A DNA stretch of 53,732 bases, taken from IMG/VR virus record IMGVR_UViG_3300017770_000016, positions 1 through 53,732 of that record. One strand, given 5' to 3'. The translations under genes and the position numbers were made by a program. Below the pieces are notes generated by a model. That model searched no databases. It was not told where the DNA came from and saw nothing but the letters and a program-made list of their open reading frames with translations. Source of the stretch: a virus. Shown piece by piece: positions 15,733 through 19,749 of the stretch (position 1 is the stretch's first letter; every line of letters begins with the position of its first letter).

Positions 15733-16536
15733 ATGAGTAAACTCACGGTTATCAGTCTGGGCGCAGGTGTACAGTCGAGCGTGATGGCGTTGATGGCGGC
15801 GAAGGGTGAGATCACACCCATGCCTGATTACGCGATCTTCGCAGACACACAAGCGGAACCTGATCACATATACGAATGGCTTGACTGGCTAGAAAGCCAG
15901 CTGCCGTTCCCGGTGCTGCGCGTCACACGAGGCAGTCTGTTTGAAGATGTCATGGACCCAAACAACAGAAGCGCATCACCGCCGTTCTTTACCGCATCAC
16001 CAAGTGGGATAGGCGAGGGTATCTTGATGCGTCAATGTACCCGCGACTACAAAGTCACGCCGATCCAACGAAAGCTACGCGAACTGGCAGGCTACAAACC
16101 GCGCCAGCGTATCCCAGCAGACACAGTCGAGCAGTGGATAGGCATCAGCACCGACGAGATACAGAGGATGAAGGACGCGCCAGAGAAATGGTGCAACAAC
16201 CGATGGCCTTTGATCGAAACCCGCATGTCACGGTGGCATTGCCTGCGCTGGATGCGTGACAACGGCTACAACGAACTGCCGCGCAAAAGCGCATGCACGT
16301 TCTGTCCCTATCATGACAACGCAACCTGGCGTGAGATGAAAGCCAATGACCCCAAGTCATGGGAGCAGGCGGTGGCTGTGGACAAACACATACGCGATGA
16401 CTTTCGTGGCACAACAAGCAAGATCTACATACACCGATCACTTGTGCCGCTTGATGAAGCAGACCTGGCTGACCCTGCAGAGGATCAGATTGTGATGGAC
16501 TTTGGTGACGAGTGCGACGGGATGTGCGGGGTATGA
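15733..16536 (+). CDS. PAPS-reductase-like ATP-pyrophosphatase family protein
   Basis: 267 residues. The PP-loop S-L-G-A-G-V-Q-S-S lies at residues 8-16, followed by AIFADTQAEPDHIY, C102-T-R and C188-T-F-C191-P, the usual features of phage members of the phosphoadenosine phosphosulfate reductase superfamily. True sulfate reduction is unlikely without other sulfur genes. Related enzymes activate sulfur for nucleic-acid thiolation (DndC, TtuA types). Its place directly before a GNAT-like protein and a methyltransferase suggests nucleic-acid modification; that is inference. The start is one base after the prim-pol stop. Confidence 0.85.
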   Translation: MSKLTVISLGAGVQSSVMALMAAKGEITPMPDYAIFADTQAEPDHIYEWLDWLESQLPFPVLRVTRGSLFEDVMDPNNRSASPPFFTASPSGIGEGILMRQCTRDYKVTPIQRKLRELAGYKPRQRIPADTVEQWIGISTDEIQRMKDAPEKWCNNRWPLIETRMSRWHCLRWMRDNGYNELPRKSACTFCPYHDNATWREMKANDPKSWEQAVAVDKHIRDDFRGTTSKIYIHRSLVPLDEADLADPAEDQIVMDFGDECDGMCGV

Positions 16537-16985
16537 GCAAGCTTTCTGTCACCCCCATCAACTTGGATGAAGCAAACGCCTTTGTGGAGCAGCATCACCG
16601 ACACCATAAGCCGGTGCCTGGTGCAAAGTTCTGTGTAGCTGTGTCAGAGGAAGATGTGGTGCGAGGTGTGGCCATAGTCGGCAGGCCTGTGGCCCGGCAT
16701 CTTGATGATGGCTGGACTCTTGAGGTCAATCGGTGCTGCACAGACGGCACGAGAAACGCTTGCTCGATGCTCTACGCAACAGCGTGGAAAGCTGCGCGAG
16801 CGATGGGATACACAAGCTTGATCACCTACACGCTAGAGTCAGAGGGCGGAGCCAGCTTACGAGGCGCAGGATGGCGGTGTGTTGGCCAGACAAGCACTGC
16901 AAATCGAGGGTGGAATACACCTAGTCGGCCTAGAGTGGACACCCATCCGCTGCAGCAGAAACTCAAGTGGAGCGCAGATGTCTGA
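16533..16985 (+). CDS. XF1762-family, GNAT-like protein
   Basis: 150 residues from the ATG at 16533, which overlaps the preceding TGA as ATGA. The motif FVEQHHRHHKPVPGAKFCVAV, then GVAIVGRPVAR, LEVNRCCTDGTRNACSMLY, and AARAMGYTSLITYTLESEGG follow a GNAT acetyltransferase-like fold, as in the XF1762 family common in phages. Mom, the phage Mu DNA-modification enzyme, is also a GNAT-like protein, so a role in modifying phage DNA is possible but unproven. The 3' end overlaps the methyltransferase ATG by 8 bases. Confidence 0.8.
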   Translation: MSKLSVTPINLDEANAFVEQHHRHHKPVPGAKFCVAVSEEDVVRGVAIVGRPVARHLDDGWTLEVNRCCTDGTRNACSMLYATAWKAARAMGYTSLITYTLESEGGASLRGAGWRCVGQTSTANRGWNTPSRPRVDTHPLQQKLKWSADV

Positions 16986-17655
16986 TGTGGATTGTACCAA
17001 AGAACTACCAACCGTCCTCAGTCTCTGCACTGGATACGGTGGCATCGAGCGAGGACTTGAGCTTGCCGGGTTTGAACATCGAACAGTCGCTCATGTGGAG
17101 ATCGAAGCCTTCGCCGCTGCGAACTTGGTTGCAAAGATGGAAACGGGACAGCTGGTTCCAGCACCTATCTGGTCGGATCTTAAAACCCTGCCAGCACACT
17201 GCTTTCGAGACAGAGTTGATGTCCTCACTGGCGGCTATCCCTGCCAGCCGTTTAGCGCCGCTGGGCTGCGCAAAGGAGCCGAAGACCCCAGACACCTATG
17301 GCCATACATCTACGACCACATACGAACAATTAGACCTGTTCGCTGCTTCTTTGAGAACGTCGAAGGACACATCAGCCTTGGACTCAGAGAGGTCATCGAT
17401 GATCTGGAAGGACTTGGTTACGCAACGACGTGGGGAATATTCAGCGCGGCTGAAGTTGGCGCACCTCATCAGAGAAAACGGGTCTACATTCTGGCCGACG
17501 CCAGTGGCGCAGGACGACAACAAATCACCAGAGGCTCACATGAGGATGAAGCAGCGCATGAAGGGCGGGCCTCGACACAAACCCACATCGCTGCAGGTGA
17601 TGGTGAAGGGCGTGGAGCGGGGGCTCTGGCCAACACCGACAGCGCAAGACAATAA
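16978..17655 (+). CDS. C5 cytosine-specific DNA methyltransferase, motifs I-VIII, ended by an in-frame TAA
   Basis: 225 residues from the ATG at 16978, with GGAG six bases upstream. Motif I LSLCTGYGGIERG (14-26), motif IV GGYPCQPFS with catalytic C89, motif VI ENV (126-128) and motif VIII QRKRVYILA (165-173) are all present. The frame stops at TAA 17653-17655 inside the target-recognition region, but it reopens at once and carries motif X further on (17656-18078). A full product would be 366 residues, the normal family length. Readthrough, a recent nonsense mutation or a sequence error are all possible. A second frame overlaps throughout (see 16985-18010). An intact enzyme would protect phage DNA from restriction. 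Confidence 0.85.
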   Translation: MSDVDCTKELPTVLSLCTGYGGIERGLELAGFEHRTVAHVEIEAFAAANLVAKMETGQLVPAPIWSDLKTLPAHCFRDRVDVLTGGYPCQPFSAAGLRKGAEDPRHLWPYIYDHIRTIRPVRCFFENVEGHISLGLREVIDDLEGLGYATTWGIFSAAEVGAPHQRKRVYILADASGAGRQQITRGSHEDEAAHEGRASTQTHIAAGDGEGRGAGALANTDSARQ

Positions 17656-18010
17656 CCAAGTGAGTGGCAACCCAGATCACCCGAAGCGCGGCACAACGCT
17701 GGGCGGGGCAGCGAGACTCTGGCCAACACCGACAGCCAGCGACAGCGAGGGCGGGCCGAGACAGCAGGATGGCAAGCGGGGCAGGGCGCTGAAGGATTTG
17801 CCGCAACAAATGTGGCCGACGCCAACGGCCAACGAAGACGCGGCGGGCACGCCGAACGGCAACATGCAGAAGATGCTGGGCAATCACCCGGCGGTACGGG
17901 GCACGACGCCAGCGGAGTGGTCAGCTGGGCAACTGAACCCGACGTGGGTCGAGTGGTTAATGGGGCTGCCTTTAGGGTGGACAGACTTAGGCTCTTGGGG
18001 AACGGAGTAG
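16985..18010 (+). CDS. Overprinted WPTP-repeat protein in the second frame of the methyltransferase
   Basis: A frame open for 342 codons from ATG 16985 (GTG also possible at 16967), entirely inside the methyltransferase gene. Its ATG overlaps the TGA of the XF1762 gene (TGATG), seven bases from the methyltransferase ATG. It encodes SKPSPLRTWLQRWKRDSW, EPKTPDTYG, EQLDLF, TSKDTSALDSERSS and RRGEYSARLKLAHL. Four repeats follow (FWPTPVAQD, LWPTPTAQD, LWPTPTASD, MWPTPTANE), then LNPTWVEWLMGLPLGWTDL. I recognise these as features of a widespread unnamed phage protein usually found beside or within C5 methyltransferases. Whether it is translated here is not shown. Confidence 0.6.
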   Translation: MWIVPKNYQPSSVSALDTVASSEDLSLPGLNIEQSLMWRSKPSPLRTWLQRWKRDSWFQHLSGRILKPCQHTAFETELMSSLAAIPASRLAPLGCAKEPKTPDTYGHTSTTTYEQLDLFAASLRTSKDTSALDSERSSMIWKDLVTQRRGEYSARLKLAHLIRENGSTFWPTPVAQDDNKSPEAHMRMKQRMKGGPRHKPTSLQVMVKGVERGLWPTPTAQDNNQVSGNPDHPKRGTTLGGAARLWPTPTASDSEGGPRQQDGKRGRALKDLPQQMWPTPTANEDAAGTPNGNMQKMLGNHPAVRGTTPAEWSAGQLNPTWVEWLMGLPLGWTDLGSWGTE

Positions 18011-18078
18011 TGCCAGATACCGCAGCCAAGGCGTGGATTGTGTTGAATGACCAACTTGCCAAAGAAAATCATGGGTGA
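17656..18078 (+). pseudogene. C-terminal part of the C5 methyltransferase (motifs IX-X) after the in-frame TAA
   Basis: This is the same frame as 16978-17655 and is free of stops until TGA at 18078. It contains the repeats TLANTDSQRQRG and VADANGQRRRG that commonly follow motif VIII in such enzymes. It ends with EPDVGRVVNGAAFRVDRLR and LLGNGVVPDTAAKAW, the usual end of motifs IX-X. It has no ribosome site or convincing start of its own. It is either reached by stop-codon readthrough or is a dead remnant. Confidence 0.7.
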
Positions 18079-18999: not shown

Positions 19000-19749
19000 A
19001 TGGCAAAGAATCAAGCTGTCGATATGTTGAATAATCCAAAGCGTAGTCTGCCAGAGCGGCACAAGGAGAAGCCGTTCACCAAGAAGCAGCAGGCGTTCAT
19101 TCAGCACTATGTGTATCACGATCTGACTAACACAGAAGCTGCGCATCGAGCAGGTTACTCAAACCCACGGCAGATTGCGTATGTGCTTTTGAATGATCCC
19201 AGATACATGAACGTGCAGATGAAGATTCGTGAACTGCAAGAGGCGCAGCAGAAGAAATATGAGATTACGTTTGAGAAGGTTGCGCGTGACTTGCAGATGA
19301 TAAGGGACAGGGCAGTTGAAGATGGATCGTATGGTGCAGCCGTCACAGCAGAGTTGGGTAGAGCAAAACTTGCGGGCCTGATGGTTGAGAAGAAAGAGAT
19401 CAAGCACGGGCGAATCGACCAAATGGATCGATCAGAAGTTGAGGCCAGGTTGAATGCTCTGCTCGACAAAAATCAGCTGATGCCCGGCTTGCGCGCTGCA
19501 GTGGTGGATGACAGCGTGATTGATGTTGAGGATGTGCCTGATGATGATGTTGAAGAGGCACAGTTTGAGGATGCAGAGTTCGAGGAACAGGAAGATGAGG
19601 AGCCCGCAGCGGAGCCCCTCGATGGTGAGGATGAAGAGGATTTAGGTGAGGATTATGATTTAGGTGATGAGGATGATTTAGGTGAGGAGGAGGAGGACGA
19701 AGAAGATGAGGAGGATGATTTAGAGCCAGACGAAGAGGACGAATGGTAA
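19000..19749 (+). CDS. terS: Terminase small subunit with long acidic tail
   Basis: 249 residues. KPFTKKQQAFIQHYVYHDL and NTEAAHRAGYS followed by VLLNDPRYMNVQMKIREL match the Terminase_2 small-subunit family: an HTH that binds packaging sites and helical oligomerisation segments (EITFEKVARDLQMIRDRAVED). From about residue 165 the protein becomes almost pure Asp/Glu for 80 residues, an unusually long acidic tail. The large subunit is not adjacent but 4.7 kb downstream beyond a minus-strand island. The 3' end overlaps the opposite-strand gene at 19653. Confidence 0.88.
   Translation: MAKNQAVDMLNNPKRSLPERHKEKPFTKKQQAFIQHYVYHDLTNTEAAHRAGYSNPRQIAYVLLNDPRYMNVQMKIRELQEAQQKKYEITFEKVARDLQMIRDRAVEDGSYGAAVTAELGRAKLAGLMVEKKEIKHGRIDQMDRSEVEARLNALLDKNQLMPGLRAAVVDDSVIDVEDVPDDDVEEAQFEDAEFEEQEDEEPAAEPLDGEDEEDLGEDYDLGDEDDLGEEEEDEEDEEDDLEPDEEDEW

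Follow-up and report, generated by a model that had tools for sequence, protein, structure and literature searches.

One viral locus raises the question of how a single stretch of DNA could encode both a C5-cytosine methyltransferase and a second protein containing WPTPxA repeats, and of what the second protein might contribute. The locus lies within the window, which is the whole 53,732-nucleotide stretch of viral DNA that was analyzed (IMG/VR record IMGVR_UViG_3300017770_000016). The methyltransferase frame (ATG 16978) is termed F1, the +1 frame (ATG 16985) is termed F2, and the remaining forward frame is termed F3; the features of the locus, together with the Mom-like gene directly upstream, are on the plus strand. 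The explanation favored here, with a probability of about 0.88, is that the locus encodes a heterodimeric C5-cytosine methyltransferase whose two subunits would be specified by overlapping frames. Dual coding appears well supported by the sequence comparisons, and the heterodimeric function is one that we infer from homology.

Organization of the overlapping frames

The F1 frame encodes a putative catalytic subunit (alpha) of 225 amino acids at positions 16978–17655, as judged from its match to PHROG 363 (E 9e-54) and the positions of its motifs. Motifs I (LCTGYGG), IV (GGYPCQ), VI (ENV), and VIII (QRKR) are present downstream of ATG 16978, as anticipated by the original prediction. The TIGR00675 (dcm) model matches F1 with an E of 1e-25 and 93 bits, which is under its cut-off of 100.65 bits. 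Against PF00145 (cut-off 22), the intact relative L049 reaches 114.8 bits. Beyond the TAA codon that closes the 225-codon frame, the same frame continues at positions 17656–18078 with a linker and motif X (LLGNGVVP, 17992–18015), and this part matches PHROG 32758 (E 8e-12) and PHROG 363 (E 5e-6). The first start codon in the F1 frame 3' of the TAA is GTG 17812. A single F1 containing all of the motifs had been proposed; the frame is not continuous in the window, as the TAA (17653–17655) separates motif X from the chain that carries motifs I–VIII, but motif X is indeed found in the same frame beyond it.

The F2 frame runs from 16985 to 18010 and would encode a protein of 341 amino acids, the proposed target-recognition subunit (beta), an assignment based on PHROG 1008 and on the stop depletion and wobble constraint described below. 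Its stop codon is located at 18008–18010, in agreement with the claim of more than 340 open codons, and use of the upstream GTG 16967 would lengthen the product to 347 amino acids. The match to PHROG 1008, which is likewise labeled DNA methyltransferase, has an E of 3e-30, while no significant match to F2 was found in Pfam, NCBIfam, or the PDB sequences. The predicted four WPTPxA repeats, RGEYSARLK, and LNPTWVEWLMGLPLGWT were all recovered. The repeats (17492–17836) lie opposite the F1 linker (LANTDS...), as determined by alignment, and are matched by the LLPTP repeats of single-chain enzymes. The segment LNPTWVEWLMGLPLGWT (17933–17983), assigned as motif IX, faces F1 EPDVGRVVNGAAFRVD and is almost invariant among 50 F2 sequences. 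The exact correspondence of LANTDSQRQ with LWPTPTASD, and of EPDVGRVVNG with LNPTWVEWLM, was also confirmed.

The start region offers a candidate site for the initiation of both chains. As originally described, the start codons at 16978 and 16985 are seven bases apart. In addition, the F2 ATG at 16985 overlaps another possible F1 start, GTG 16987, to give a nested start, ATGTG (16985–16989), which is conserved in relatives: ATGTGG lies directly 5' of motif I in 52 of 66 distinct relatives, with the F2 ATG followed two bases on by the F1 GTG. For 31 of these 66, F1 could begin at a single codon only, mostly the GTG of ATGTG. Of 57 distinct relatives, 41 have a Shine–Dalgarno-like motif 3–17 nt 5' of the ATG of F2, and in the window a GGAG sequence (16969–16972) is a candidate shared ribosome-binding site. 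Taken together, these sequence features suggest that both chains may be started from one site.

Directly upstream lies a gene for a Mom-like DNA modification protein (16536–16985; PHROG 1384, E 4e-43), for which the Pfam Mom model gives an E of 5e-6, slightly under its cut-off. The TGA of this gene (16983–16985) overlaps the F2 ATG by one base (TGATG). A phosphoadenosine phosphosulfate reductase-like gene (PHROG 424, E 1e-47) is also located upstream of the methyltransferase, the two upstream genes occupying positions 15733–16985 of the window. The presence of reductase-like and Mom-like genes beside the methyltransferase suggests a DNA-modification cluster. Farther downstream, positions 19000–19749 encode a protein that resembles the terminase small subunit (PHROG 51, E 9e-12) and carries a long acidic tail of Asp and Glu.

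Selection on F2 and its distribution

The openness of F2 was probed in the 80 nearest relatives in viral contigs, which were retrieved using only the first 225 residues of F1 as the query, so that F2 had no role in their selection. The number of stops expected in F2 and F3 was obtained by shuffling synonymous F1 codons within each gene. In these 80 relatives F2 contains 23 stops compared with 490 expected, totals that do not represent independent events because the loci are related by descent, while the F3 control shows no depletion (1390 observed, 1335 expected). In most loci, the observed number of F2 stops is below that of every shuffle. When stops were counted by block, F2 had none in the blocks between motif I and motif IX, compared with 149, 24, 73, and 93 expected; all five F2 stops seen in this count are 5' of motif I, within the block where F2 starts. 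The overlap has a median length of 918 bases in the 71 loci measured.

Constraint on the residues of F2 was assessed from third-base entropy at conserved four-fold degenerate codons of F1. This entropy is 0.91 bits across motifs I–VIII and 0.51 bits between motifs VIII and IX, and rises to 1.56 bits in the motif X tail, which in the clade of the window is encoded by F1 only, F2 having already ended. Several third bases are invariant in 60–73 sequences, and the stretch around motif IV is free to vary. Substitutions that are silent in F1 and change F2 number 0.32 per site in the overlap, compared with 0.68 per site in the tail. This comparison includes motifs I–VIII and the motif X tail only, since the F1 alignment between motifs VIII and IX is full of indels and unreliable, and it is not expressed as SN/SS ratios because SS is saturated. 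In the Acinetobacter/Pseudomonas clade, the region between motifs VIII and IX is almost frozen (0.20 bits) and the region of motifs I–VIII is not clearly constrained (1.24 bits). Consequently, residue constraint on the N-terminal half of F2 is established for the clade of the window only; the motif X tail is moreover not a clean control in the Acinetobacter/Pseudomonas clade, because F2 extends beyond motif IX there. The excess identity of F2 over synonymous shuffles of F1 was discounted as evidence, as the F3 control is nearly as high and the excess in both frames reflects wobble conservation and shared descent.

These results bear on the simplest alternative, in which F2 is an untranslated by-product of F1 codons and base composition. 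F1 does force part of F2, the F2 identity expected from F1 alone being about 0.30, but codon choice of this kind leaves unexplained both the loss of stops from F2 and not from F3 and the relaxation of wobble constraint where F2 ends. It is further contradicted by the degeneration of F1 opposite the F2 repeats in loci where motif X need not be reached (see below), and we consider the by-product explanation barely credible. The original prediction had named stops in F2 and synonymous-site constraint among relatives as the features to be checked; stops are nearly absent and the constraint follows F2. The second frame is thus open beyond expectation and constrained at the level of its amino acids, and is under purifying selection by these computations. 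The claim of a long, widespread case of dual coding inside a catalytic gene accordingly gains support, at the level of sequence, from stop depletion and constraint.

Relatives of F2 were confirmed in bacterial genomes (356) and in viral contigs (at least 474). The record titles name Acinetobacter, Pseudomonas, Chromobacterium, Halomonas, Burkholderia, Paenibacillus, Brevibacillus, and metagenome bins of many phyla, and the members in bacterial genomes are probably mostly prophages. In phage records, the annotation covers F1 alone, F2 alone, or the pair, and databases usually show one of the two. For distant members in E. coli chromosomes, the annotation contains F1 alone or two pseudogene pieces despite read-through of F1. 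One such locus, in E. coli ST361 (NZ_CP103704.1; L375 563–1740), is annotated as two partial "DNA cytosine methyltransferase" pseudogene pieces; F1 is in fact uninterrupted, and most of its length is also open in F2. Searches of the open-access literature yielded no account of this widespread overlap; the restriction to open access makes the absence weak evidence.

Complementary parts of a probable two-subunit methyltransferase

The nature of F2 is clarified by single-chain methyltransferases of mycobacteriophages, in which the catalytic motifs, LPTP repeats, motif IX, and motif X are all in one frame. For example, Mycobacterium phage Rita gp76 contains motifs I–VIII, three LLPTP repeats, LAPAFSEWMMGWPAGWV, and IIGNGVVP in one chain, and matches both PHROG 363 (E 4e-79) and PHROG 1008 (E 2e-61). 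In a profile of the C-terminal half of the single-chain enzymes, positions 66–225 (the repeats and motif IX) match F2, with an E of 2e-13 for the window, and positions 232–257 (motif X) match the F1 tails of relatives. This division of the profile indicates that F2 holds the recognition region and motif IX, neither of which is part of the F1 chain. The original prediction had assigned EPDVGRVVNG to motifs IX–X of F1. Where F2 reads WVEWLMG, the genetic code limits F1 to [LMV]G[*GR][MV][AV][DHNY]G, so that VGRVVNG is a forced out-of-frame shadow of the true motif IX in F2 and not a motif IX itself.

Structural comparison was carried out with a model of a single-chain relative (pTM 0.75), which aligns over its length with M.HhaI (E 3e-14); the TM score is about 0.5 due to the poorly modeled repeat region. 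The profile places FsEWmmGwP on M.HhaI residues 273–308, where motifs IX and X of that enzyme are located, a placement that carries no significance alone. The AlphaFold2 model of F2 by itself is poor (pLDDT 49) and was left out of the fold search.

Related genes with other layouts serve as natural controls. Complete single-chain genes contain 6–12 stops in the +1 frame in 15 of 16 cases and three in the other, and the tandem-split genes of mycobacteriophages (Backyardigan gp74/gp73 and relatives) contain 2–6 such stops over the catalytic part. Openness of F2 across the catalytic domain accompanies the overprinted layout only. In Gordonia phage GordDuk1 (L131 1474–2360), a split second half with LLPTP, WIMG, and ILGNSVV lies in the +1 frame, and only its C-terminal part has been called, as a hypothetical protein.

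The overlap was also examined from the side of F2. A second sample was gathered by searching bacterial genomes and viral contigs with a profile of the C-terminal half of F2 and taking the best 80 loci of each. The F1 catalytic domain is found in the -1 frame in 159 of these 160 loci, and F2 contains 36 stops over that domain compared with 369 expected. F2 is open across at least 95% of the catalytic domain in 143 of the 157 loci analyzed. In one metagenome bin (L162 2491–2932), the catalytic domain switches from the F1 to the F2 frame, reflecting an indel or an assembly error. In the reciprocal test, the codons of F2 were shuffled and F1 stops were counted opposite the repeats. Where motif X is in F1 (141 of 157 loci), no F1 stop occurs opposite the repeat region compared with 448 expected, while in the seven loci with motif X in F2 there are 63 F1 stops and about 73 expected. 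F1 is therefore kept open opposite the F2 repeats only where it is needed to reach motif X. Motif X has also moved to F2 in six loci of the first sample (L109, L113, L115, L118, L121, and L071). By these computations, the two frames hold complementary parts.

Two further explanations accept that F2 is translated. In the first, F2 would perform an unrelated job, such as anti-restriction or regulation. No homologue of the N-terminal half of F2 is known beyond the F2 family itself, and the lack of a significant Pfam or PDB match noted above is in keeping with such a job; yet the C-terminal half corresponds to the portion of single-chain methyltransferases that holds the target-recognition region and motif IX, and motif X is exchanged between the two frames, so we give this explanation a very slim chance. 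In the second, programmed ribosomal frameshifting from F1 to F2 after motif VIII would yield one fused protein. The split-tandem Backyardigan gp74/gp73 genes join in that manner just after motif VIII, and both parts are fused in single-chain relatives. A frameshift product, however, would have no need for F2 to be open and constrained from its own start across the catalytic region, and where motif X is in F1 it would require two opposite shifts. The ATGTGG start is also conserved. This explanation is improbable.

The heterodimeric reading can be stated as a mechanism. Alpha, from F1, would comprise catalytic motifs I–VIII, a linker, and then motif X, and beta, from F2, would comprise an N-terminal region opposite the catalytic domain followed by the WPTP-repeat target-recognition region and motif IX. 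Ribosomes landing at the nested-start site (ATGTG) would probably start both chains. These may come together as a single enzyme for the methylation of phage DNA, presumably as protection against restriction. Translation of both frames, DNA recognition by the repeats, and the protective role are each proposed. We further think it fairly likely that this large family of phages and prophages is an obligate dual-coded heterodimer in which overprinting occurred both ways: the N-terminal region of beta would have arisen opposite the ancient catalytic domain and the linker of alpha opposite the ancient recognition domain, with the nested ATGTG starts causing both chains to be made together. If so, the "conserved" C-terminal GRVxxG of many annotated methyltransferases is the coding shadow of a partner protein.

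The TAA that ends F1 in the window, between motif VIII and the C-terminal segment, was compared with ten close relatives. All ten have CAACAA where the window has CAATAA, a single C>T change that converts Gln to a stop in F1 and is silent in F2 (Asn AAC to AAT). Among the relatives inspected, the TAA is common only to a 99.9% identical contig (L007). As the TAA cuts motif X off from the catalytic part, the activity of the window copy is uncertain, and this copy may be inactive or dependent on a third polypeptide. It is possible, at somewhat less than an even chance, that the enzyme of the window is dead, the TAA in alpha being pseudogenizing and F2 still open because the change is recent. Such a reading concerns this single copy and does not compete with that of the family. 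The TAA is one substitution away from intact relatives and otherwise confined to the nearly identical contig, which speaks for this reading; against it, F2 is intact, GTG 17812 could start a motif X polypeptide, and split enzymes tolerate breaks between motifs VIII and IX (PMC3404938). Four other loci (L171, L178, L158, and L287) likewise combine a nonsense codon in F1 with an intact F2; these were retrieved through F2, and the asymmetry between the frames may therefore be due to ascertainment.

Significance and comparison with known systems

To our knowledge, long same-strand dual coding has rarely been established outside small viral genomes. The present family of loci combines strong selection signals in both frames with natural controls: fusion of the parts, their tandem splitting, and the exchange of motif X between frames. 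It offers an explanation for PHROG 363, PHROG 1008, and many half-called bacterial "DNA cytosine methyltransferase" annotations, and supplies overlap-detection methods with a large collection of loci for which a function is proposed in each frame. It also makes possible a cheap test of whether two chains from one locus form one methyltransferase.

A second reading frame within a phage methylase gene is also known from the ShiLan domain, an out-of-frame HNH endonuclease (PMC11855218). The ShiLan domain is a mobile nuclease insertion, whereas F2 overlaps the conserved catalytic core and would belong to the enzyme. The possibility that F2 is a hidden HNH of this type was rejected, as it has no HNH match in Pfam or NCBIfam and in every relative overlaps the gene's core. 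Enzymes of the Rita gp76 type contain the same parts in one chain; unlike the loci described here, they use one frame only, and the +1 frame of their close relatives is full of stops.

Among the systems known, M.AquI and M.EcoHK31I are split C5 methyltransferases made of two polypeptides (PMC3404938). The first subunit of M.AquI contains motifs I–VIII and the second motifs IX–X. A similar split is seen in the loci with motif X in F2 (e.g. L113, L118, and L121), comprising the seven in the second sample and the six named above from the first, and does not apply to the window. In contrast to M.AquI, whose subunits share the variable region, F2 also covers the whole catalytic domain of F1. In M.EcoHK31I, the large subunit contains motifs I–VIII and X, along with the predicted recognition domain, and the small subunit contains motif IX (PMC3404938). 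The same division of motifs, with I–VIII and X in one polypeptide and IX in another, is found in 141 of 157 loci, and in the window motif X is in the F1 frame but 3' of the stop. The small-subunit gene of M.EcoHK31I is likewise reported to be contained, in a different frame, within the large-subunit gene (Lee et al. 1995). The present loci differ from M.EcoHK31I in that the repeats, i.e. the recognition region, are in F2 together with motif IX, and in that F2 spans nearly all of F1, has nested starts, and occurs in many phages and prophages.
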